Under the pieces are notes generated by a model. The model was given only the letters and a program-made list of their open reading frames with translations. It made no database searches and was not told the origin of the DNA. Positions 7,037 to 63,866 of a stretch of DNA of 64,000 nt are shown here, one piece after another. The number at the start of each line of letters is the position of its first letter. Within the stretch, counting starts at the first letter, position 1. Where the stretch lies: assembly GCA_001544655.2 (NCBI GenBank), contig FCOD02000012.1, positions 124,001-188,000 of the forward strand, read 5' to 3'. Position numbers and translations under genes: made by a program. The DNA is from Caballeronia turbans (GTDB lineage: Bacteria > Pseudomonadota > Gammaproteobacteria > Burkholderiales > Burkholderiaceae).

Positions 7037-8251
7037 ATGCCTGATACGGAAATCGCGCCGGGAAAAGCCGGGCAGCACGACGAGCAAATCGCACTACGCA
7101 AGCTGTTCGAACCCATAAAGGTGGGACCGCACAACCTGCGTCATTGTGTCGTAATGGCGCCGCTGACGCGATCGCGCGCGAGCCGCCCAGGCAACATACC
7201 GTCGCAGCTCAACGCCTGCTATTACGCGCAGCGCGCATCGTCCGCGCTCATCATCAGCGAGGCGACGCAGGTGTCGATGCAAGGGCAGGGCTATGCATGG
7301 ACGCCTGGGATTCATACTCGCGAGCAGGTCGAAGGCTGGCGGCTGGTGGCGGACGCCGTGCATGAGGCGGGCGGGTTGATGTTCATGCAGCTCTGGCACG
7401 TCGGGCGCATATCGCACCCCTCGTTGCAGCCCGATGAAATGCTTCCCGTTGCGCCGTCTGCGGTCACGCCAAGAGCGGAGGCGTTCATCGAGAACGAGCG
7501 CGGCGAAGGTGTCGTCGCGCCCTGCGTCACGCCTCGCGCGCTGCAGGTCGAAGAGATGCCGTATCTCGTGCGCCAGTACTTCAGGGGTGCGCGCAACGCA
7601 AAGGCTGCCGGTATGGACGGCGTCGAAGTGCACGGAGCGAACGGGTATCTGCTCGACCAGTTTCTGCTGTCCGGCTCGAACCGCCGCACGGACGAATACG
7701 GCGGGTCGAGCGAGCGCCGGGCGAAGCTGCTCTTCGAGGTGATCGAAACGGTTTGCGAAGTGTGGGGCCCGGAAAAGGTCGGCGTACGGCTCTCGCCTCT
7801 CGGCACCTTCAACGACATGCATGACGACGATCCCGAGGCGACCTTCTCTTACGTCATCGAGAAGCTCAACCGATACGGGCTGGCTTATCTGCACATCGTC
7901 AATCCCGCGCTGGCGGCAACCGGCGAGGATGTCGCCTTCACGGAGCGCGCGAAACGCATGAACGAGCTGATACGCCGCACTTATCGTGGTGTGCTGATGG
8001 TCGCGGGCGGGTTCGACGGCAGCAGTGCGGAAAGGTGGCTCGAGGACGGCAACGCGGACCTGATTGCGTTTGGACGCCTGTTCATCGCTAATCCCGACCT
8101 GCCGGAACGCTTCCGGTCGCGCGCTCCGCTCAATTCGCCGGATCCGTCCACGTTCTACGGAGGCGGCGAGCGTGGGTATACCGACTATCCGTCGCTCGCG
8201 CAGGAGCGTGGGGAGGCCCCACGGTCCGTGATCGACGGACGTTGGAGATAG
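7037..8251 (+). CDS. Old yellow enzyme family alkene reductase (NemA-like)
   Basis: 404 aa cytoplasmic FMN enzyme predicted to reduce activated C=C bonds or nitro groups using NAD(P)H. AAGGAG lies a few bases before the ATG. The first 20 residues are an extra tail; the TIM barrel begins at LFEPIKVG. Motifs include VVMAPLTRSRA (FMN binding), FMQLWHVGR at 116-124, the substrate-binding pair H199/N202 in VEVHGANGYLLDQFL, DEYGGS at 219-224, and GRLFIANPDLP near the C-terminus. All positions expected for activity are present. It stands alone, with 84 bp to the next gene. Confidence 0.92.
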   Translation: MPDTEIAPGKAGQHDEQIALRKLFEPIKVGPHNLRHCVVMAPLTRSRASRPGNIPSQLNACYYAQRASSALIISEATQVSMQGQGYAWTPGIHTREQVEGWRLVADAVHEAGGLMFMQLWHVGRISHPSLQPDEMLPVAPSAVTPRAEAFIENERGEGVVAPCVTPRALQVEEMPYLVRQYFRGARNAKAAGMDGVEVHGANGYLLDQFLLSGSNRRTDEYGGSSERRAKLLFEVIETVCEVWGPEKVGVRLSPLGTFNDMHDDDPEATFSYVIEKLNRYGLAYLHIVNPALAATGEDVAFTERAKRMNELIRRTYRGVLMVAGGFDGSSAERWLEDGNADLIAFGRLFIANPDLPERFRSRAPLNSPDPSTFYGGGERGYTDYPSLAQERGEAPRSVIDGRWR

Positions 8252-8335
8252 GCAATCGTTGGCCGGCGGGCTCTCATGCGTCACCCAAGGATTGCGATGT
8301 GCGCCGAGCCGGCCACCGATCACTTAGAGGCTCAT

Positions 8336-8692
8336 ATGGCTGACACTACCTGGGTTGTCGTTGCCGACGGCAGCCGTGCACGATTCTTTGAGACACCGGG
8401 ACTCAAACTGGATTTGCGGGAAATCGAAGACCTGGTCAATATCGTCCCGAGTGGACTGGCGCTCAGCGAGAAGGATCGCGAAAAATTCGCGAAGACCGTC
8501 GCCAACTATGTCGAACAGGGACGGCTTCAACACCGATATCAACGATTGCGATTTGCCGTGGAGCCGAAGTTTCTCGGGATGCTGCGCGAGCGTCTGAGCG
8601 AGGAGACGCGTCAAATGATTTTTGAACAAATCGACGAAGATCTCTCGGCCCTCGATGCGCGCGAGATTCAAGCGCACCTGCAAAGGCATTGA
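8336..8692 (+). CDS. Host-attachment protein family (AtsE-like), shortened
   Basis: 118 aa from the ATG at 8336; the upstream part of the frame has no homology. The start TTWVVVADGSRARFFE is the hallmark of the 'protein required for attachment to host cells' family, and the end carries PKFLGMLRERL with IDEDLSALDAREIQ. Relatives are usually about 145 aa; here the charged middle loop between the first strands and KFAKTVANYVEQG is short. The family was named from Agrobacterium plant attachment, but most members are uncharacterised. Ribosome binding site is weak. Confidence 0.8.
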   Translation: MADTTWVVVADGSRARFFETPGLKLDLREIEDLVNIVPSGLALSEKDREKFAKTVANYVEQGRLQHRYQRLRFAVEPKFLGMLRERLSEETRQMIFEQIDEDLSALDAREIQAHLQRH

Positions 8693-9600
8693 CGGCGACC
8701 TGCCAGATGCCATTTCGGGACCGCTACAAACGCTTCTTGCGAGGCTTGTCCAAGTACGCACCTCCTGAGCGCGATGACCCACCCCTTGGAATCGTTGTCG
8801 GCGTTCCTGGCCAACTGCGCGCCCTCCGGAATGACTGCGACAAATGGCGCACTTATGAGCATGGAGTGATTCACACCGAGGTCGTCACAGCCCGCGGCCT
8901 GCACAACTGACGTGCCCGCCGGTATAACGAGCCGAAGTCCCTGCACGGTATTCGGCCCGCCGTTGGTGAAGCGACGTTCATCGGTTGGCAGCGTAGCCCG
9001 GGTCCCGGCGAGACGGCGGAAAGCCGGCGCGCCTCGCTGCGAAGACAGTTGAAAAGGTGGCAGCGCATGTCATCGCCGTCGATGAAAGCGGTTGTACACC
9101 GAACGGCAAATGCGAGCGCGCCGTCCTTGTTCGCGAACAGGCCGAGCTTGCCGAGCGACGTTGCATGCCCGTTCTCGTCGAGGATTGAGGCTGTAGCCAT
9201 GACGGTGCGTCCTGCCGACGCAACACGCTTGATCGATCCGTGACGTACGTCGCCAGCTGCGAAGTCGGCGAGGGCGCAAGGGCTGTGGCGCTGGTGCATC
9301 GCTATCTGAATAGCGTGTGAGCGTAAGCGCAACCTTGATCCGCACGTGCGCGCACCTGTCCGAGGAGTACGATCATGACCCCTGGTTGCACGCATCCAGG
9401 CGAGCCCGCATTCTCCACACGCCCATCGACTATTGCGTGGACTGCGTCAAGCTTCGCCAGCCGTGGGTACATTTGCGGCTTTGTCTTTTCGTGCGGACAC
9501 TACCGCGGCCGCTTTCCATCTTTGACGGCTTCATGCGGGATATCGTCGAGGGCCATGGAAGCTGACGAGCTGTTTCCGATGTCGCCGTGTGCGCACCGCG
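8693..9600. other. Largely non-coding; one weak minus-strand candidate
   Basis: A minus-strand frame starting with ATG at 9200 and ending at 8871 (MATASILDENGHATSLGKLG, then FIDGDDMRCHLFNCLRSEA) reads like a small soluble protein up to about residue 66 and then turns to low-quality sequence, suggesting a frameshift. I know no family for it. Other frames look accidental. Confidence 0.3.
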
Positions 9601-10200
9601 CTACTTGATCTCGAGGCGCCGCTTCGCGGCGGGTTCATTCGCCGCTTTGGGCACCCGCACGGTGAGCACGCCGTTCTCGAAATTCGCTTCGGCGCGTTCT
9701 AGATCGACGCCGGAGGGTAGCGGAATCACGCGCTGGAACTGTCCGAACGCCCGCTCCACCCGGTAGCAGCCCTTCTCGTCGCCCTTCGATTCGATGCGCT
9801 TCTCGCCGGTCAGCACCAGCATGTCCTCAACGACTTCGAGCTCCACGTCCTCGCGCGACAGTCCTGGCAACTCGGCCACGATGCGAAGCGCGTCGCCGTC
9901 GTCGACCACATCGAGGCGCGGCTGAAAGCGGCTGGGGCTGAAGTCGCCGAACCAGTTGCCGATCGGTCCCATCCCGCCGAACGGATCGCGTATCAGGTCG
10001 GTGAGAAGATGCAGGGGATCGGGCAGCGGCCAACGCGCCGCATCGAACGATGCTGGCCATGTGGACGCGCCCGCATCCGAGGTCGACGGCGCGGGGGCTT
10101 GCTGCGAGGGCGGGGTGTTCAGCTTCGCGCCCGCGGCCTTTTCCTCCGGGCTCTTGCGCAGGAAGCGGAAGGGGTTCCACTTATCGAGGTCCAATAGCAT
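9601..10200 (-). CDS. Small heat shock protein, Hsp20/alpha-crystallin family
   Basis: 199 aa ATP-independent holdase chaperone. The start ATG at 10200 is preceded by AAGGAGCATAGCG. Residues 1-90 are a variable N-terminal arm with a Pro/Ala-rich stretch. The alpha-crystallin domain covers about 92-185: FQPRLDVVDDGDALRIVAEL, PGLSREDVELEV, then ENGVLTVRVPK, the conserved GVLTV hairpin. It is the last gene of a minus-strand group, hdeD-like then PRC-barrel then hsp20, with gaps of 52 and 78 bp. This arrangement suggests joint stress induction. Confidence 0.93.
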   Translation of the reverse strand: MLLDLDKWNPFRFLRKSPEEKAAGAKLNTPPSQQAPAPSTSDAGASTWPASFDAARWPLPDPLHLLTDLIRDPFGGMGPIGNWFGDFSPSRFQPRLDVVDDGDALRIVAELPGLSREDVELEVVEDMLVLTGEKRIESKGDEKGCYRVERAFGQFQRVIPLPSGVDLERAEANFENGVLTVRVPKAANEPAAKRRLEIK

Positions 10201-57448: not shown

Positions 57449-59818
57449 TTAATCCGTGAACAACGCCTTGCGGATGATCGCGTGCACGCCCCAGTTGCCA
57501 TCGACGACTTGCGTGACGCCGAAGTCCACCGCCACCGACATCAGCGAGATGGCTTCGTCTTCGGTGAGTCCCTTGGTGGACATCAGAAACCGCCGCGTCT
57601 TGATGAAGGCATCGCGCATGGCCTGATCCAGCGTGGACTTCTGATAGACCTCGCTTTGCGCGCTGGTGCCGAATTCGGCCAGATAGTCGGGATGGCTGAA
57701 GCCGTGCAGCACCCATTCATCGGCGGTTTCGACAAGCGGATAGGTGAGGTCCGCGAACGACTGCGAGGCAAGCGTGGACTTCTTGTGCAGGATCAGTTCG
57801 AAGTCGCCGGTGAGCGAGCATTCGATGGCCGTGCCGCACAACTCGGAATCTCCTTGCGACGCGTGCGGGTCACCGATTGACAAGAGCGCGCCGGCCACGC
57901 CGACCGGCAGAAACACGCTTGCGCCCGGGCCCACGCGCCAGTTGTCGAGATTGCCGCCGAAGGCCGAAGGCGGAATCGAATCGATCAGACCGTTCTGCTG
58001 CGGCGCCACGCCGATCACGCCGAAGTGCGGTCGCACGGGAATGGTCACGTTCCTCAGCACGTCGTGATTCTCGACCACGCTCGCGTGGTCCACCGGCACG
58101 CCGGGATAATCGATGATCGGATGCAGCACGCCGAAGGGATCGCGCTGCGGCGTCCAGCGATAGTTGTAGACGGCGCGCGCATAGGCGCTGTCGTCGCGCG
58201 CTTCGTCCGTGTGGATCTCGTAGATGGTTACGACTTCGCGCGGCTTCGGTTCGGTGAGCAGCTCGCGATAATGAAAGCCCCACCACGCCGCAACGTTGCT
58301 GCCGAACGCGCGGCCGTGGAACTTCGGATTCGTGCAGCGGCGAGGATGAATATCGACGATGCGCACTTCGAGCACATCGCCCGGTTCCGCGCCCGTCACC
58401 GCAATCGGCCCGGTGCAGATATGCACGCCGAAGCCTTCGCCCGCGCCGCGTCCATAGATGGAGGCGTTCATCGGGCCCGCGCCGCGACGGTCGACGTTCT
58501 TGCGTTCGGGTGTCCAGTGGAACACGCTCTCCGCGCCGGGATCGCCCGCGATCATGCGGTCCCAGTCATCCGACGCATGCTGCGTGAGCGCTTCGACCGT
58601 CACCGTATCGCCGCTCGCGACTTCGAGCACGGGCTTGAGATCGTGGCTGAAATAGCCCCAGTGCACCGTGTTCGCCGTTGCCCGCAGCAAATGATGCCGC
58701 GGCCTGCCGCCCGTCCGCGCGGGCCGCGCTTGCACGGCATCGCTTTCTTCGCGCACGGCGACGAGCGTGTCGCCCGTCTCTTCACTGCGCGCTTGCGCGA
58801 CCAGACTCGCGGCGTTCACCGGCAGCCCGCGCGATAGCGAATGCACGAGATGGCGCGCGAGTTCCAGGTTCGCTTCGTGCCGGAACGTGCGGGGCGATGC
58901 GCCATAACGCTCGCGGAACACGCGGCTGAAGTGCGCCGGATCGTTGAAGCCCCAGCGAAAGCAGATGTCGGATATGGAGACTTTCTCCGAGAGCGGATCG
59001 GCCAGTTCCGCGCGGCAGCGTTCGAGGCGGCGCGAGCGCACATAAGTCGAGAAACTCTGTCCGGCGAGTTCGAACAGCTTCTGCACGTAACGCGGCGACA
59101 CGCGTTCGTCTTTGGCGAGCGAGGTCACGCTCAGGGCTGAATCGGCGAGATGCGTTTCGATAAAGCGGCACAGGCGCGCGAACAACGCCGACTGCGGCGG
59201 CGTCAGCCCGTTGAACGAACCTTTGCGTTCCTGTCCGGCAAGACAGGCCACGAGCATTTCGGCGAGCGCGAGTTCGGTGGGACGCAACTCCTGCGCGCTC
59301 AGCGTTTCGAGGCTTTCCACGACCGAACGCAGAAAGCCCGAGAAGATGTGGCCGATGCCCGTCGCGCCCGGCAGCAACGCCACGCGCAACGAGAGCGGCG
59401 AGATGACACGCGCGTTGATGGCGCTCTTAGGCGCCCGCACGATGAACGCGCGAAAGCGTCCCGCGAAAACCAGTGACGCGCTCTGTCCCGGCGCTGCATA
59501 CACGATGTCATGCGGGCTCACTCGCTCGCGCAGACCATCGGCGATGAGCGTGGCGTCGCCATCGATCAGCAGCACGAGCATGAGACTGTCCGCATGATCC
59601 GCGCTCATCTGCAGCGTCTGCGCGGCCGAGGCGATGGTCGTGAATTCGATCCCGCCCGCCGACAGGCGCGAGGTCAGCGTGCCGTGCAGACCGCGTTCGC
59701 CGCCTTCGATCTTGCTGCGCCATCCGAGACGTGCGAGCGCCGCGTTCCATTCATGACGGCGTTCGAACTCGGGATACGACTCGGTGGTGAAGCGCGACAG
59801 GTTCAACGAAAACTCCAC
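57449..59818 (-). CDS. AraC-type regulator fused to acetamidase/formamidase
   Basis: 789 aa in one open frame, starting with GTG at 59818 (ribosome binding site weak). Residues 1-200 are an AraC-binding-like sensory domain (SLMLVLLIDGDATLIADGLR). Residues 211-316 are the two helix-turn-helix motifs of AraC: FIETHLADSALSVTSLAKDE, RVSPRYVQKLFELAGQSFST, ISDICFRWGFNDPAHFSRVF, RERYGASPRTFR. A 65-residue linker leads to a complete acetamidase/formamidase domain from 381 (ANTVHWGYF, GDPGAESVF, GRAFGSNVAAWWGFHYREL, SIGDPHASQGDSELCGTAIE). The enzyme half is paralogous to the gene at 62.6 kb. Regulator and likely product- or substrate-handling enzyme are thus one protein. It is divergent from the ABC transporter genes. 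Confidence 0.88.
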   Translation of the reverse strand: MEFSLNLSRFTTESYPEFERRHEWNAALARLGWRSKIEGGERGLHGTLTSRLSAGGIEFTTIASAAQTLQMSADHADSLMLVLLIDGDATLIADGLRERVSPHDIVYAAPGQSASLVFAGRFRAFIVRAPKSAINARVISPLSLRVALLPGATGIGHIFSGFLRSVVESLETLSAQELRPTELALAEMLVACLAGQERKGSFNGLTPPQSALFARLCRFIETHLADSALSVTSLAKDERVSPRYVQKLFELAGQSFSTYVRSRRLERCRAELADPLSEKVSISDICFRWGFNDPAHFSRVFRERYGASPRTFRHEANLELARHLVHSLSRGLPVNAASLVAQARSEETGDTLVAVREESDAVQARPARTGGRPRHHLLRATANTVHWGYFSHDLKPVLEVASGDTVTVEALTQHASDDWDRMIAGDPGAESVFHWTPERKNVDRRGAGPMNASIYGRGAGEGFGVHICTGPIAVTGAEPGDVLEVRIVDIHPRRCTNPKFHGRAFGSNVAAWWGFHYRELLTEPKPREVVTIYEIHTDEARDDSAYARAVYNYRWTPQRDPFGVLHPIIDYPGVPVDHASVVENHDVLRNVTIPVRPHFGVIGVAPQQNGLIDSIPPSAFGGNLDNWRVGPGASVFLPVGVAGALLSIGDPHASQGDSELCGTAIECSLTGDFELILHKKSTLASQSFADLTYPLVETADEWVLHGFSHPDYLAEFGTSAQSEVYQKSTLDQAMRDAFIKTRRFLMSTKGLTEDEAISLMSVAVDFGVTQVVDGNWGVHAIIRKALFTD

Positions 59819-60096
59819 GATAGGCGAAGCAGGAAAAGCATTCCAAAAGCAACCTTCACGCCATCGCGCTGCTTACGGCGCCGGGTGCGTCGCGTATCAA
59901 AGACAGTGCATACATGCGCCATCGCGGCGCACGCCTGCACTTGCGCGCATCACGCGACGCGCTGCGTCATGCGTTCTTGGATGAGCGTGCACGCCAATAC
60001 CAGCAGTTGTGCGCAGCCAGTCAAGTTCGCGAGATTTCGGTCGCCTACGCTCTGGGCATCGCAAGTCAATCGTCGTCAGCCGTCAGGAGCGTATCG
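59819..60096. promoter_or_regulatory. Divergent control region between the AraC-amidase fusion and the ABC transporter
   Basis: 278 bp without a gene. It is the natural target of the fused AraC domain. I see no clear pair of direct repeats that would mark its binding sites. CAGGAGCGTATCG at the end is the ribosome binding site of the binding-protein gene. Confidence 0.4.
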
Positions 60097-60978
60097 ATGC
60101 AAAGGAATCTCGTGGGCCGGTTATCTCGCGCAGGATTTGGCGCGCTGTGCGCGGTGTTGTTCGCCTTCGCGGGACAGGCGCACGCCGCCGCGCCCGCAGA
60201 ATGCAGCGCGTTGCAGGCGAAGTACCCGCAGTTCAAGGGCAAGACACTCACCAATGCGATCAACCCACATACGCCGGGCTATGAAGCGCTCGACCCGAAC
60301 GATCCGAGCAAGTACATCGGCTTCGATATCGATCTGGGCGAGTTGATCGCGCAATGCCTCGGCTTCACGATTGCCTACAAGCCCGTGACCTTCGCCGCGC
60401 TGCTCACGACCTTGCAGAGCGGTCAGGCCGATATCGTTATCTCCGATATCTACGCGACCGAGGAGCGCGCCAAGGCCGCGGACTTCATCACGTACTCGAA
60501 GGTGTTCGACGGCGTACTCGTCGCCAAGGGCAATCCGAAGAAGATCACCGGCATCAACACGTCGATGTGCGGCACGACCGCCGCCGAAAACACGGGCTAT
60601 GTGGAAGTGCCGCTGATTCAGGCGCTGGCGCCGCAATGCAAGGCGGCCGGCAAGCCCGAAGCCACCGTGCAGCTTTACGACAACAACGCCAACTGCATCC
60701 AGGCCATTCTCGCGGGCCGCGCCGATACGTACATCAACGACGTGAACACGGTCGACCAGGCGGTGAAGGCGTATCCGGACAAGCTGGAGAAAGCGACCGC
60801 CGTGACCTTGCCGTACTTCGTGGGCATCGGCGTGCCGAAGGACAAGCCCGATTTCCGCGATGCCGTGATGGCCGCGCTCGTCGCCATTCAGAAGAGCGGC
60901 GCGCAGTCCGGGCTACTCAAGAAGTGGAGCCTCGGCGTCGAGAATCTCGCGACGCCGCAACTCGTCGTTGCGAAGTAA
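60097..60978 (+). CDS. ABC transporter substrate-binding protein, polar amino acid type (family 3)
   Basis: 293 aa. The ATG at 60097 has AGGAG at eight bases. Signal peptide: SRAGFGALCAVLFAFAGQAH with cleavage after AHA near residue 30. The mature domain shows YIGFDIDLGELIAQCLGFTI, FAALLTTLQSGQADIVISDI, YATEERAKAADFITYSKVFD, and LAGRADTYINDVNTVDQAVK, typical of family 3 binding proteins. Five or six cysteines (AEC, AQCL, SMCGTT, PQCKA, NANC) may form disulfides. The ligand is probably a small polar compound; given the flanking amidases, an amide or amino-acid amide is a reasonable guess. Confidence 0.87.
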   Translation: MQRNLVGRLSRAGFGALCAVLFAFAGQAHAAAPAECSALQAKYPQFKGKTLTNAINPHTPGYEALDPNDPSKYIGFDIDLGELIAQCLGFTIAYKPVTFAALLTTLQSGQADIVISDIYATEERAKAADFITYSKVFDGVLVAKGNPKKITGINTSMCGTTAAENTGYVEVPLIQALAPQCKAAGKPEATVQLYDNNANCIQAILAGRADTYINDVNTVDQAVKAYPDKLEKATAVTLPYFVGIGVPKDKPDFRDAVMAALVAIQKSGAQSGLLKKWSLGVENLATPQLVVAK

Positions 60979-60995
60979 GCGCGGAAGCATCGGCT

Positions 60996-62576
60996 ATGGA
61001 CCTGTTCCTTCACTATCTCGGCCTGCCTTATCTGCTCGACGGCATCCGCTTCACGATCGCCGTCACCTTGCTCGGACTCGCGGGCGGGCTCGTGCTGGGA
61101 CTCGTCCTTGCCGCCATGCAACTGAGCCGAATCGGACCGCTCGCGGCCATCGCGCGCGGCTATACGGTGATTTTTCGCGGCACGCCGCTGATTCTGCAAC
61201 TCGTGTTCGCCTACGACGCCCTGCCGCATATCGGCATCAAGCTGAGCGCCATCGGCGCGGCGGGCCTCGCGCTCGCCGCGAACGAAGCGCCTTTCATCGC
61301 GGAGATATTCCGCTCGGGCGTGCTCGGCGTGGATCGCGGACAGACGCTCGCGGGGCAGGCGCTCGGCATGACGCCTTCCGTGTTGATGCGCCGGATCATC
61401 GCGCCGCAGGCCCTTCGCTCGATGATTCCCGCGCTCGGCAACGAAACCGTCAGCGCGTTGAAGAACTCTTCGCTGGCTTCGGTTATCTCTGTGGGTGAGC
61501 TGACCTTGCGCAGCACGCAGCTTGCATCGTCGACGTTCGACTTCTTTTCGATCTTCTTTGCGTCGGGTCTCTTGTATTTGTGTCTGACGGGCGCGATTGC
61601 CGCTATTCAGCTGATGATCGAACGCGCGCTCGATCTGGACCGCGCCAGCACGCGCGGCGGCTTCTGGGGACGACGCCGGAGCGCGCCTGTACCGACGCCC
61701 GCAGGCCCGACCGATCTGCCACCTGTCTTCGTCCCGGCGCCCGTCACACCCGGCGACCGCGCACGCCGTTACGACGCGCTGTCTCGTAACAGTACCGCCG
61801 TGCAGATAAACGGCGTACACAAGCATTACGGCGAGCAGCCGGTGCTCAATGGCTTCGATCTAAACATCCGCTCCGGCGAAGTCGTCGCGTTGCTCGGACC
61901 GAGCGGCTCGGGCAAGAGCACGCTGCTTCGCTGCATCAATCATCTGGAACAGTGGGAACAAGGCGAGATACGCGTGGGCGGACGTCGTCTCGGCTTTCGC
62001 GATGACGGGCGGCGCATGAATCCGCGCGAGCTTGCGAAGGAGCGCGCGAGTCTTGGCGTCGCCATGGTGTTCCAGCAGTTCAATCTTTTCGGCCATCTGA
62101 CGGCGCGCGAGAACATTGCATTGCCGCTCGTCTGGGTGCATGGCGCGACGCTCGCCGATGCCAACCGACGCGCGGATGCCCTGCTCGAACGCGTGGGCCT
62201 CGCGCATCGCGCCGATGCTCTGCCGCGTCATCTGTCCGGCGGCCAGCAACAACGCGTGGCGATTGCGCGTGCGCTGGCGCCGAATCCGCGCGTGCTGCTT
62301 CTCGACGAGCCGACTTCCGCGCTCGATCCTGAACTCGTGGGCGAAGTGCTCGAAGTGATCCGCCGCCTCGCGCTCGACGATGGCCTGACGATGATCATTT
62401 CGACGCATCAGTTGCGCTTCGCCGATGAAGTGGCCGACCGCGTCGTGTTCCTGAGCGGCGGGACCGTCGTGGAGGACGGATCCGCGCATCAGGTTTTGAC
62501 GCAGCCGCATCATCCGTTGACGGCGCGCTTTCTCAACGTGATGGGCGCGGGCAGCACGCTCGAAACCGTGCACTGA
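60996..62576 (+). CDS. Fused ABC transporter permease-ATPase, amino acid type
   Basis: 526 aa from the ATG at 60996, 17 bp behind the binding-protein gene. Residues 1-215 are a HisM/GlnP-type permease with about five helices (GIRFTIAVTLLGLAGGLVLG; FRGTPLILQLVFAYDALP; EIFRSGVLGVDRGQTLAGQA, LGMTP as EAA loop). A Pro-rich linker covers about 228-262. Residues 268-526 are the ATPase: Walker A GPSGSGKST at 301, signature LSGGQQQRVAIARAL, Walker B VLLLDEPTSALDPE, H-loop ISTHQ. All catalytic motifs are intact. Joining both domains in one chain implies a homodimeric transporter. Confidence 0.9.
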   Translation: MDLFLHYLGLPYLLDGIRFTIAVTLLGLAGGLVLGLVLAAMQLSRIGPLAAIARGYTVIFRGTPLILQLVFAYDALPHIGIKLSAIGAAGLALAANEAPFIAEIFRSGVLGVDRGQTLAGQALGMTPSVLMRRIIAPQALRSMIPALGNETVSALKNSSLASVISVGELTLRSTQLASSTFDFFSIFFASGLLYLCLTGAIAAIQLMIERALDLDRASTRGGFWGRRRSAPVPTPAGPTDLPPVFVPAPVTPGDRARRYDALSRNSTAVQINGVHKHYGEQPVLNGFDLNIRSGEVVALLGPSGSGKSTLLRCINHLEQWEQGEIRVGGRRLGFRDDGRRMNPRELAKERASLGVAMVFQQFNLFGHLTARENIALPLVWVHGATLADANRRADALLERVGLAHRADALPRHLSGGQQQRVAIARALAPNPRVLLLDEPTSALDPELVGEVLEVIRRLALDDGLTMIISTHQLRFADEVADRVVFLSGGTVVEDGSAHQVLTQPHHPLTARFLNVMGAGSTLETVH

Positions 62577-62615: not shown

Positions 62616-63866
62616 ATGAAGCATTACACGCTGCCCGTTTCATCATCCACCGTGCATTGGGGATACTTCAGCAAACGGGTAGAACCGCGCCTCACGCTCA
62701 AGTCGGGCGACCGCGCCACCATCGAAACGCTGACGCATCACGCCAACGACGACCACGAGCGCATGATCGCGGGCGATCCGGGCGCGCAAAGCGTGTTCGA
62801 ATGGACGCGCGAGCACAAGGCCGTTTCGCGGCGCGGCGCGGGTCCGACCGAAGGACCGTTCCGCCTGGGCGCTGGCGAAGGCGTGGGCGTGCATCTGCTG
62901 ACCGGTCCGGTGGCAATCGAAGGCGCCGAACCTGGCGACGTGCTCGAAGTGCGCATCCTCGATGTCAGGCCGCGGCCCAGTTGCAGCGCGTGTCATGCAG
63001 GCAAGTGCTTCGGCTCGAACGTGGCCGCGTCGTGGGGCTTTCAGTATCACGATCTGATCGAGGAGCCGAAGCCGCGCGAAGTGGTGACCATCTTCGAACT
63101 CGATACTTCCGGCGAACCGTATGCGCGCGCGGTCTACAACTATGTGTGGACGCCGCAGACCGACCCGGATGGCATCGTGCATGCGACTATCGATTATCCC
63201 GGCGTGCAGGTGGATCACCGGCTCGTGACGAAGCGCGAAAACATCTTGCCGGATATCCGCGTGCCGGCGCGACTGCATTTCGGCACCATGGGCGTCGCGC
63301 CCGCCGAAGCGGACTATGTCAGTTCCATTCCGCCGAGCTACACGGGCGGCAACATCGATGACTGGCGCATCGGCCGGGGCGCGACCATGTATTACCCGGT
63401 GGCGGTCGAGGGCGCGCTCTTCTCCGTGGGCGACCCGCACGCCGCGCAGGGCGACAGCGAGCTAGGCGGCACGGCGATCGAAACATCCTTGACGGGGGAC
63501 TTCGAATTCATCCTGCATAAGAAAGCGGACCTCGAAGGCACGCTGCTCGAAGGGCTCACGCATCCGCTGCTCGAGACAGATCAGCAATGGTCGGTGTATG
63601 GCTTCACGTTCCCCAACTATCTGGCCGAACTCGGGACTAGCGCGCAGGTAGAAGTGGCGCAGCATGCGAGCCTCGACAAAGCCATGCGCGACGCCTTTCG
63701 CAAGCTACGCCGCTTCCTGATGACGGTGCATGGTTTGAGCGAAGACGAAGCCATTGCGCTGATGTCGGTAGCGGCGGACTTCGGCGTGACGCAGGTGGTC
63801 GACGCGAACTGGGGCGTACATGGTTCGATCCGCAAGGACGTGTTTGCGAACTACAAGAAGAGTTGA
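62616..63866 (+). CDS. Acetamidase/formamidase family enzyme
   Basis: 416 aa, free-standing paralog of the C-terminal half of the fusion protein. Shared blocks: STVHWGYFS, RMIAGDPGAQSVFEW, RRGAGP, LEVRILDVRPR, FGSNVAASWGFQYHDL, EEPKPREVVTIFELD, YARAVYNYVWTPQTDPDG, IDYPGVQVDH and FSVGDPHAAQGDSELGGTAI. By eye more than half of the aligned residues agree. It has a cysteine group C-S-A-C-x-x-x-x-C at about residues 126-134 where the fusion protein has C-T-N-P-K. Hydrolyses short amides such as formamide or acetamide to ammonia and acid. It closes the plus-strand operon, 39 bp behind the transporter. Confidence 0.88.
   Translation: MKHYTLPVSSSTVHWGYFSKRVEPRLTLKSGDRATIETLTHHANDDHERMIAGDPGAQSVFEWTREHKAVSRRGAGPTEGPFRLGAGEGVGVHLLTGPVAIEGAEPGDVLEVRILDVRPRPSCSACHAGKCFGSNVAASWGFQYHDLIEEPKPREVVTIFELDTSGEPYARAVYNYVWTPQTDPDGIVHATIDYPGVQVDHRLVTKRENILPDIRVPARLHFGTMGVAPAEADYVSSIPPSYTGGNIDDWRIGRGATMYYPVAVEGALFSVGDPHAAQGDSELGGTAIETSLTGDFEFILHKKADLEGTLLEGLTHPLLETDQQWSVYGFTFPNYLAELGTSAQVEVAQHASLDKAMRDAFRKLRRFLMTVHGLSEDEAIALMSVAADFGVTQVVDANWGVHGSIRKDVFANYKKS

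Follow-up and report, generated by a model that had tools for sequence, protein, structure and literature searches.

An AraC-type regulator fused in frame to an acetamidase/formamidase in Caballeronia turbans, which probably lets the cell sense an amide about to be digested

Introduction

In PutA and Ada a regulator and an enzyme share one polypeptide chain, and in both the catalysis is established. In the GATase-1-like AraC regulators (GATRs), a GATase-like domain replaces the usual N-terminal sensor of the family. GbdR and CdhR are AraC regulators of the GATase-1 subfamily, and CdhR is encoded divergently from the catabolic operon under its control, as described in PMC5806209. In the MocR/GabR regulators, such as EnuR, a GntR helix-turn-helix is joined to an aminotransferase-fold domain that acts as both sensor and dimerisation unit, and this enzyme-fold domain has been reported to be without enzymatic activity (PMC8739950). 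Sensing through an enzyme fold is a known theme among regulators, with MocR/GabR and GATR as its examples.

Here we analyze a gene of Caballeronia turbans that joins an AraC-type regulator to an acetamidase/formamidase. It lies in the window, by which we mean the whole stretch of 64,000 nucleotides that was studied (assembly GCA_001544655.2, contig FCOD02000012.1, positions 124,001 to 188,000). The earlier note on this DNA, made from the sequence, knew of no described AraC-amidase example, and none is announced in the literature searched, which comprised titles and the first parts of abstracts with few subscription papers; a word search likewise found 'AraC' missing from the main text of a formamide review (PMC10781810). 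The domain pair is visible to anyone running Pfam, and annotation names only one half or the other. We consider it probable that the protein is a one-component AraC regulator whose amidase half is the amide-sensing part for the divergent operon.

Results

Anatomy of the fusion gene

The gene and its main domains are as follows.

57449..59818, minus strand: AraC-FmdA/AmdA fusion gene, 789 aa, with its start at GTG 59818 or 59806
59240..59668, minus strand: AraC_binding_2 domain, residues 51-193 (Pfam, 40.9 bits, cut-off 27)
58877..59119, minus strand: AraC-type double helix-turn-helix, HTH_18, residues 234-314 (Pfam, 72.0 bits, cut-off 33.6)
57449..58699, minus strand: acetamidase/formamidase domain, residues 374-789 (Pfam and alignment to solved relatives)

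Translation of the window gives a single, stop-free open frame of 789 aa, which reads from the N- to the C-terminus as an AraC_binding_2 domain, an AraC helix-turn-helix, a linker of about 57 residues and a full FmdA_AmdA amidase. The HTH_AraC profile also matches residues 272-314 (46.8 bits, cut-off 26.6) and, together with HTH_18, identifies the double helix-turn-helix of the AraC/XylS family. The FmdA_AmdA family (PF03069) is matched in two stretches with 104.9 bits against a cut-off of 27, and residues 365-787 align to residues 63-479 of the 484-residue chain 3b9t_A (phmmer, E 3.7e-190). The complete regulator described before, with sensory domain and helix-turn-helix, is thus above the Pfam cut-offs in all its parts (AraC_binding_2, HTH_18 and HTH_AraC), and its joining in frame to a full amidase stands as well. 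The four Pfam matches at E <= 0.001 include no GATase-1/DJ-1-like domain and no GntR helix-turn-helix or aminotransferase-fold domain of the MocR/GabR kind. Two narrower families score below their curated thresholds, the FmdA formamidase equivalog NF045496 (58.7 bits for the fusion and 66.8 bits for the free partner amidase described below, curated score 500) and the FeaR equivalog NF007243 (101.9 bits for the fusion, curated score 199). The start codon is uncertain: the Caballeronia zhejiangensis ortholog, which is 98% identical and annotated as 'acetamidase/formamidase family protein', has its annotated start four codons further in, giving 785 aa (57449-59806 here).

Distribution of the fusion

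An overlooked stop or frameshift, or an assembly join of two genes, could give the appearance of a fusion, and separate AraC regulators adjoining an amidase do exist in other genomes (in the even draws from the phylum and from family f212). However, the same domain order, which the earlier note had proposed to look for elsewhere, recurs in a widened sample of 88 distinct fused amidase halves (63 after collapse at >=95% identity), which come from many assemblies of beta-, alpha- and gammaproteobacteria. The first collection held 71 distinct full-length fused homologs from 80 places. Two of the 88 rows, L047 and L054, are incomplete and end before the amidase end, and L096, cut by a contig end, was included in the AraC tree and lies outside the 88. 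The full fused protein was present in 13 of 58 genomes (own included; 15 places) in the genus-level search, in 13 of the 149 genomes of the even draw from family f212, in 8 of 398 from the phylum (own included) and in 1 of 369 from the class, namely the own genome alone. A contig scan took the best 80 of 151 relatives, at 79 loci from Caballeronia, Paraburkholderia, Variovorax, Parvibaculum, Aliiglaciecola, Halopseudomonas, Oxalicibacterium and others, and 70 of these loci carry the fused gene. The earlier note would have taken it as a refutation if the two halves were always separate genes at this locus in homologs; this is not so, and fused homologs occupy such loci.

Plasmid records add Rhizobium, Sinorhizobium, Neorhizobium and Novosphingobium. 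Eighteen such records match, and 16 of them cover 80% or more of the query in a single place. One of these 16 (Rhizobium johnstonii) is annotated as two ORFs, so that the N-terminal part there is an ORF of its own, which would fit an artefact. In that record (L164, pRlX5, 7457-9866) a separate hypothetical protein precedes a gene named as an amidase, whose match begins only at residue 154, and the split possibly reflects a frameshift in the record. An artefact is, all in all, so improbable that we regard it as refuted by the 88 distinct fused sequences and by the fused matches in complete plasmid records; because the homologs are so many (63 even after the collapse), the fusion is no assembly accident, and the in-frame AraC-amidase fusion in this window is confirmed. 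The own genome also holds, outside the window (C83:1603-3798, L115), a second copy of the fused gene, broken into pieces with stops and lying beside another SBP/ABC operon.

Origin of the fused halves

The fused amidase halves form one clade in both amidase trees, one with 71 fused and 75 separate sequences (support 97) and a larger one with 88 fused and 99 separate rows (SH-aLRT 98), both of them quick trees with long-branch warnings. The 99 separate rows include three truncated duplicates, and the very divergent amidase L026 11639-12652 was dropped before the larger tree was made. The one clade indicates that a single fusion event took place and has been long maintained. Its sister group, joined with support 84, consists of 22 rows of stand-alone amidases and T3 partners (the partner clades are introduced below), and 18 of these rows, two of which are one gene, have a twin-arginine RRxF-type signal by eye, the rows without it being L094, L079, L083 and L084. 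The T1 partners inspected begin near the enzyme and have no signal. The stand-alone amidases L089-L093, L095, L097, L098, L110, L111, L158 and L159, which lie near the fused half in the tree, have twin-arginine-like signals by eye, and some of this set come from Rokubacteria.

In a tree of the AraC halves, 13 AraC regulators that lack an amidase half form one clade (99/90), joined with 19 fused proteins at 100/98, and a topology that holds all 90 fused AraC halves together was rejected (AU p = 0.033); the outgroup AraCs of this tree, usable rows from five of 10 loci, are distant and long-branched, and it was drawn at the midpoint. With this moderate support, the amidase-less regulators appear to have lost the amidase half later. 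Ten of the 13 have a T2 amidase nearby, several together with Rieske and LigB-type dioxygenases, and in the stretches examined around the other three (L148, L152 and L153) there is no T2 amidase. Some genomes carry both the fused and the amidase-less form. These related f212 regulators lie close to an amidase of the same kind and have apparently lost their own amidase half, so that this half would be dispensable in them.

The linker

Two further features lie between the halves.

58700..58870, minus strand: linker, residues 317-373, poorly conserved, 49-88 residues long in 71 homologs
58820..58831, minus strand: R-G-x-P motif (RGLP in this protein, residues 330-333) in the first part of the linker, in 88/88 fused proteins

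The earlier note had placed a linker of 65 residues between the halves; a linker is indeed there, but with the borders used here (helix-turn-helix end at 316, amidase start at 374) it measures 57 residues. It had also seen no stop, frameshift or start signal in it, and this stands for stops and frameshifts, but not fully for starts. The linker in the window has no Met, but in-frame GTG codons do occur in it, and it is possible that one of them acts as an internal start and that two proteins are made from one frame. The linkers of the homologs were compared by eye, as protein. The R-G-x-P motif lies 9-13 residues past the end of the helix-turn-helix in the fused proteins and is missing from 13 unfused and five outgroup AraCs. 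These proteins end 2-17 residues past the helix-turn-helix, so the contrast is mostly one of a missing tail, and the motif as a striking mark of fused against unfused AraCs was set aside, since most of the unfused proteins have no room for it.

A long and poorly conserved linker would suit a bifunctional protein without crosstalk, in which regulator and enzyme are simply made together. We judge this improbable, as one fusion has been kept across beta-, alpha- and gammaproteobacteria, R-G-x-P is invariant among its members, and a second amidase is usually encoded nearby (see below).

Core residues of the amidase half

Two places in the amidase half are of special interest for its activity.

57842..57874, minus strand: core motif GDPHASQGDSE, residues 649-659, with D650 in 87/88 and H652, D657 and E659 in 88/88 fused proteins
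58580..58582, minus strand: Gln413, a position at which the 88 fused proteins have Gln (73) or His (15) and 96/97 separate amidases have His

The fusion has both core motifs of the FmdA_AmdA family, GGN.D and GD.HA..GD.E, the second of which is shared with the aligned distant solved relatives 2f4l, 5ubu, 3tkk and 2ii1. N623 and D625 are, like H652, D657 and E659, present in 88/88 fused proteins, and these conserved residues, with D650, are the putative catalytic ones. Residue 637 is Leu in 88/88 fused proteins and Tyr or Phe in 97/97 separate amidases (100 rows minus three truncated duplicates); Leu637 is also found in the aligned solved relatives 2f4l, 5ubu and 2ii1. After collapse at 95% identity, residue 413 is Gln in 52/63 fused proteins. 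The sole separate amidase without His at this position is L026 11639-12652, the very divergent relative mentioned above, which lies near a fused gene. The change from His to Gln as a mark of catalytic loss had looked stronger in the first collection (66/71) than after wider sampling (73/88), and hence loss is not claimed. Because Gln413 and Leu637 differ from the free amidases, catalysis by the fused half may nevertheless be altered.

Conservation differs between the halves: that of the amidase half comes close to that of the free enzyme, and the AraC half drifts. Mean pairwise identity of AraC half, amidase half and partner amidase was 0.47, 0.75 and 0.80, respectively, at loci whose partner shares 50% identity or more with the fused half (250 sampled pairs, 47 loci), and 0.51, 0.74 and 0.78 at loci whose partner shares less than 50% (250 sampled pairs, 25 loci).

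These observations bear on a stronger form of the sensor reading, a self-resetting trigger enzyme in which a fully active amidase half would hydrolyse the inducer and the switch would turn off. Core motifs intact in 87-88 of 88 proteins and conservation nearly equal to that of the free enzyme agree with it, whereas Gln413 in most fused proteins (73/88, against His in 96/97 free ones) and Leu637 in all of them do not. Furthermore, a second, free amidase lies nearby in 64/70 loci, so the hydrolytic job is usually covered. We therefore see the trigger enzyme as a possible, though rather unlikely, arrangement.

Partner amidases and the divergent operon

The genes on the other side of the intergenic gap run in the opposite direction.

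60097..60978, plus strand: ABC transporter substrate-binding protein, first gene of the divergent operon (homologs SBP_bac_3)
60993..62576, plus strand: amino-acid-type ABC permease and ATPase in one polypeptide (Pfam; start from annotated ortholog length)
62616..63866, plus strand: separate amidase paralog, clade T1, 416 aa, 60% identical to the fused half, last gene of the divergent operon

The divergent operon had been described as one for a transporter, in agreement with the amino-acid-type ABC genes at 60097-62576. It ends with the separate amidase paralog, which strengthens the functional link of the regulator to the operon. The cluster of proteins similar to the permease-ATPase polypeptide spans 49 loci. 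A separate amidase lies within 6.5 kb of the fused gene in 64 of the 70 fused loci, and within 400 bp in 53. Among loci with full flanks, 50/53 have one within 6.5 kb and three do not, including L072, whose separate amidase is at 6.65 kb.

The 64 partner amidases are of several kinds: 40 are at least 50% and 24 less than 50% identical to the fused half, and in the amidase tree the partners fall in distinct clades T1, T2 and T3. Because they come from all three clades, it is amidase pathways that the regulator accompanies, rather than one particular partner. T1 partners are set among substrate-binding protein and permease/ATPase genes. T2 partners occur in some cases in a Rieske/LigB cluster (gene clusters 5 and 6, 11 loci each) and in some Paraburkholderia and Caballeronia in an ABC operon. 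A RidA-like gene was found at 11 clustered loci and on two rhizobial plasmids beside T1-type genes. At L052, L055, L063, L113, L147 and others there is a cluster of a Rieske oxygenase, a LigB protein, a T2 amidase, TauD and an SDR. The LigB protein of the Rieske clusters is 4,5-DOPA-extradiol-dioxygenase-like, and the AraC regulator of these clusters is either fused or amidase-less. Titles and first parts of abstracts on dihydroxypyridine, homarine and formamidase structure gave no lead for them.

The frequent presence of a free paralog (64/70 loci) could also mean that the amidase half is a scaffold that oligomerises the regulator or co-assembles with the paralog, the ligand being sensed by AraC_binding_2, a domain that the fusion does possess. 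The entries of six solved relatives contain 4 or 8 chains each, a hint of oligomers but no proof. Scaffolding alone would leave the near-invariant core motifs unexplained, and the identity of the partners to the fused half, which ranges from about 60% to about 38%, fits co-assembly poorly. We consider this explanation doubtful and retain the amidase half as the probable sensor.

Just past the window, in the same direction, are genes for a CobW-like GTP-binding protein, DUF1097, nitrile hydratase beta and alpha, an accessory protein and CbtB (L165 8356-11871). In the own genome, nitrile hydratase alpha (C22:190707-191264) lies about 2.8 kb past the partner amidase, in the same direction, and in the annotated C. 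zhejiangensis plasmid the gene order is identical through the nitrile hydratase region. These genes may share the divergent operon. Of the loci compared, many of which are too short to tell, only those of the own genome and of three close Caballeronia (zhejiangensis, grimmiae and G035, the last with a contig that matches C. sp. NK8) have the nitrile hydratase set next to the system. The set is a lineage-specific clue to the chemistry (from nitrile to amide to acid) and no general partner.

A candidate operator in the divergent gap

One element of the gap between the fusion gene and the divergent operon may be a regulator binding site.

59905..59941, no strand: imperfect 37-bp inverted repeat, candidate operator

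Its counterparts in L012 and L015 have perfect 16-bp arms, L015 with a symmetric change, and similar sequence is found in L008-L011, L013 and L014. Recognisable forms of the repeat were confined to Caballeronia-type relatives, to which L012 and L015 belong. In the window alone, 2/100 shuffles score as well. When each region was scanned for repeats, L013 was no better than its best shuffle and in L014 another repeat scored higher, and a count of 8-mers in 53 upstream regions, with relatedness kept in, found no word common to more than 18 regions. By its sequence, the repeat is a candidate operator of the fusion regulator.

Discussion

The proposed mechanism starts from an operon that would import a small polar nitrogen compound and whose free paralog would hydrolyse an amide; in this lineage, the nitrile hydratase just past the window would make the amide from a nitrile. 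This amide or a close analogue would bind the active site of the fused amidase half, binding would alter the assembly or position of the AraC half, and the AraC half, bound somewhere within 59819-60096, would then activate the divergent operon. The binding of an amide, a signal from one half to the other, the operator, the sign of regulation and residual hydrolysis are all elements that we infer. The sensor reading is supported by the conservation of the fusion, its single origin, the nearby partner amidase, the intact core motifs and the invariance of R-G-x-P (88/88). Several observations speak against it. The actual sensor may be the AraC-type sensor domain, which the protein still has, the apparent loss of the amidase half in the f212 regulators suggests that it can be done without, the exchanges at residues 413 and 637 may have altered catalysis, three of the 53 full-flank loci have no separate amidase within 6.5 kb, and nitrile hydratase neighbours are confined to the own genome and its three close relatives.

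A more far-reaching proposal is that the half was recruited once from a relative of Tat-exported enzymes and is still an active amidase, so that the regulator would bind the inducer amide, induce the import and amidase genes (with nitrile hydratase here) and destroy the inducer, timing its own output. We put this forward as tentative and would not expect it to hold in full.

The fusion extends the theme to a further, unrelated fold, carried by an AraC regulator and with the enzyme core motifs intact, and offers a testable case of an enzyme becoming a sensor, possibly of a regulator that consumes its own signal. Natural comparisons are at hand in the fused and related amidase-less regulators, in the Gln and His variants at position 413 and in the three clades of partner enzymes. 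A role is also suggested for genes that are annotated by one half, for instance as 'acetamidase/formamidase family protein'.

With respect to known systems, the nearest solved FmdA_AmdA relative, 3b9t, aligns with residues 365-787 over the enzyme domain and is named a twin-arginine translocation signal protein; the fused form has the AraC regulator in the place of the signal. PutA and Ada resemble the fusion in having regulator and enzyme in one chain, but their enzyme parts are unrelated to it. GATRs likewise combine an AraC helix-turn-helix with an enzyme-like domain; however, their GATase-like domain is of an unrelated fold, and the fusion keeps the AraC sensor and has the enzyme added C-terminally. 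Lastly, the MocR/GabR regulators share with the fusion a DNA-binding head attached to a whole enzyme-fold domain, but they differ in the helix-turn-helix family and in the enzyme fold, and their enzyme-fold domain is reported to be inactive, whereas the core motifs here are intact.
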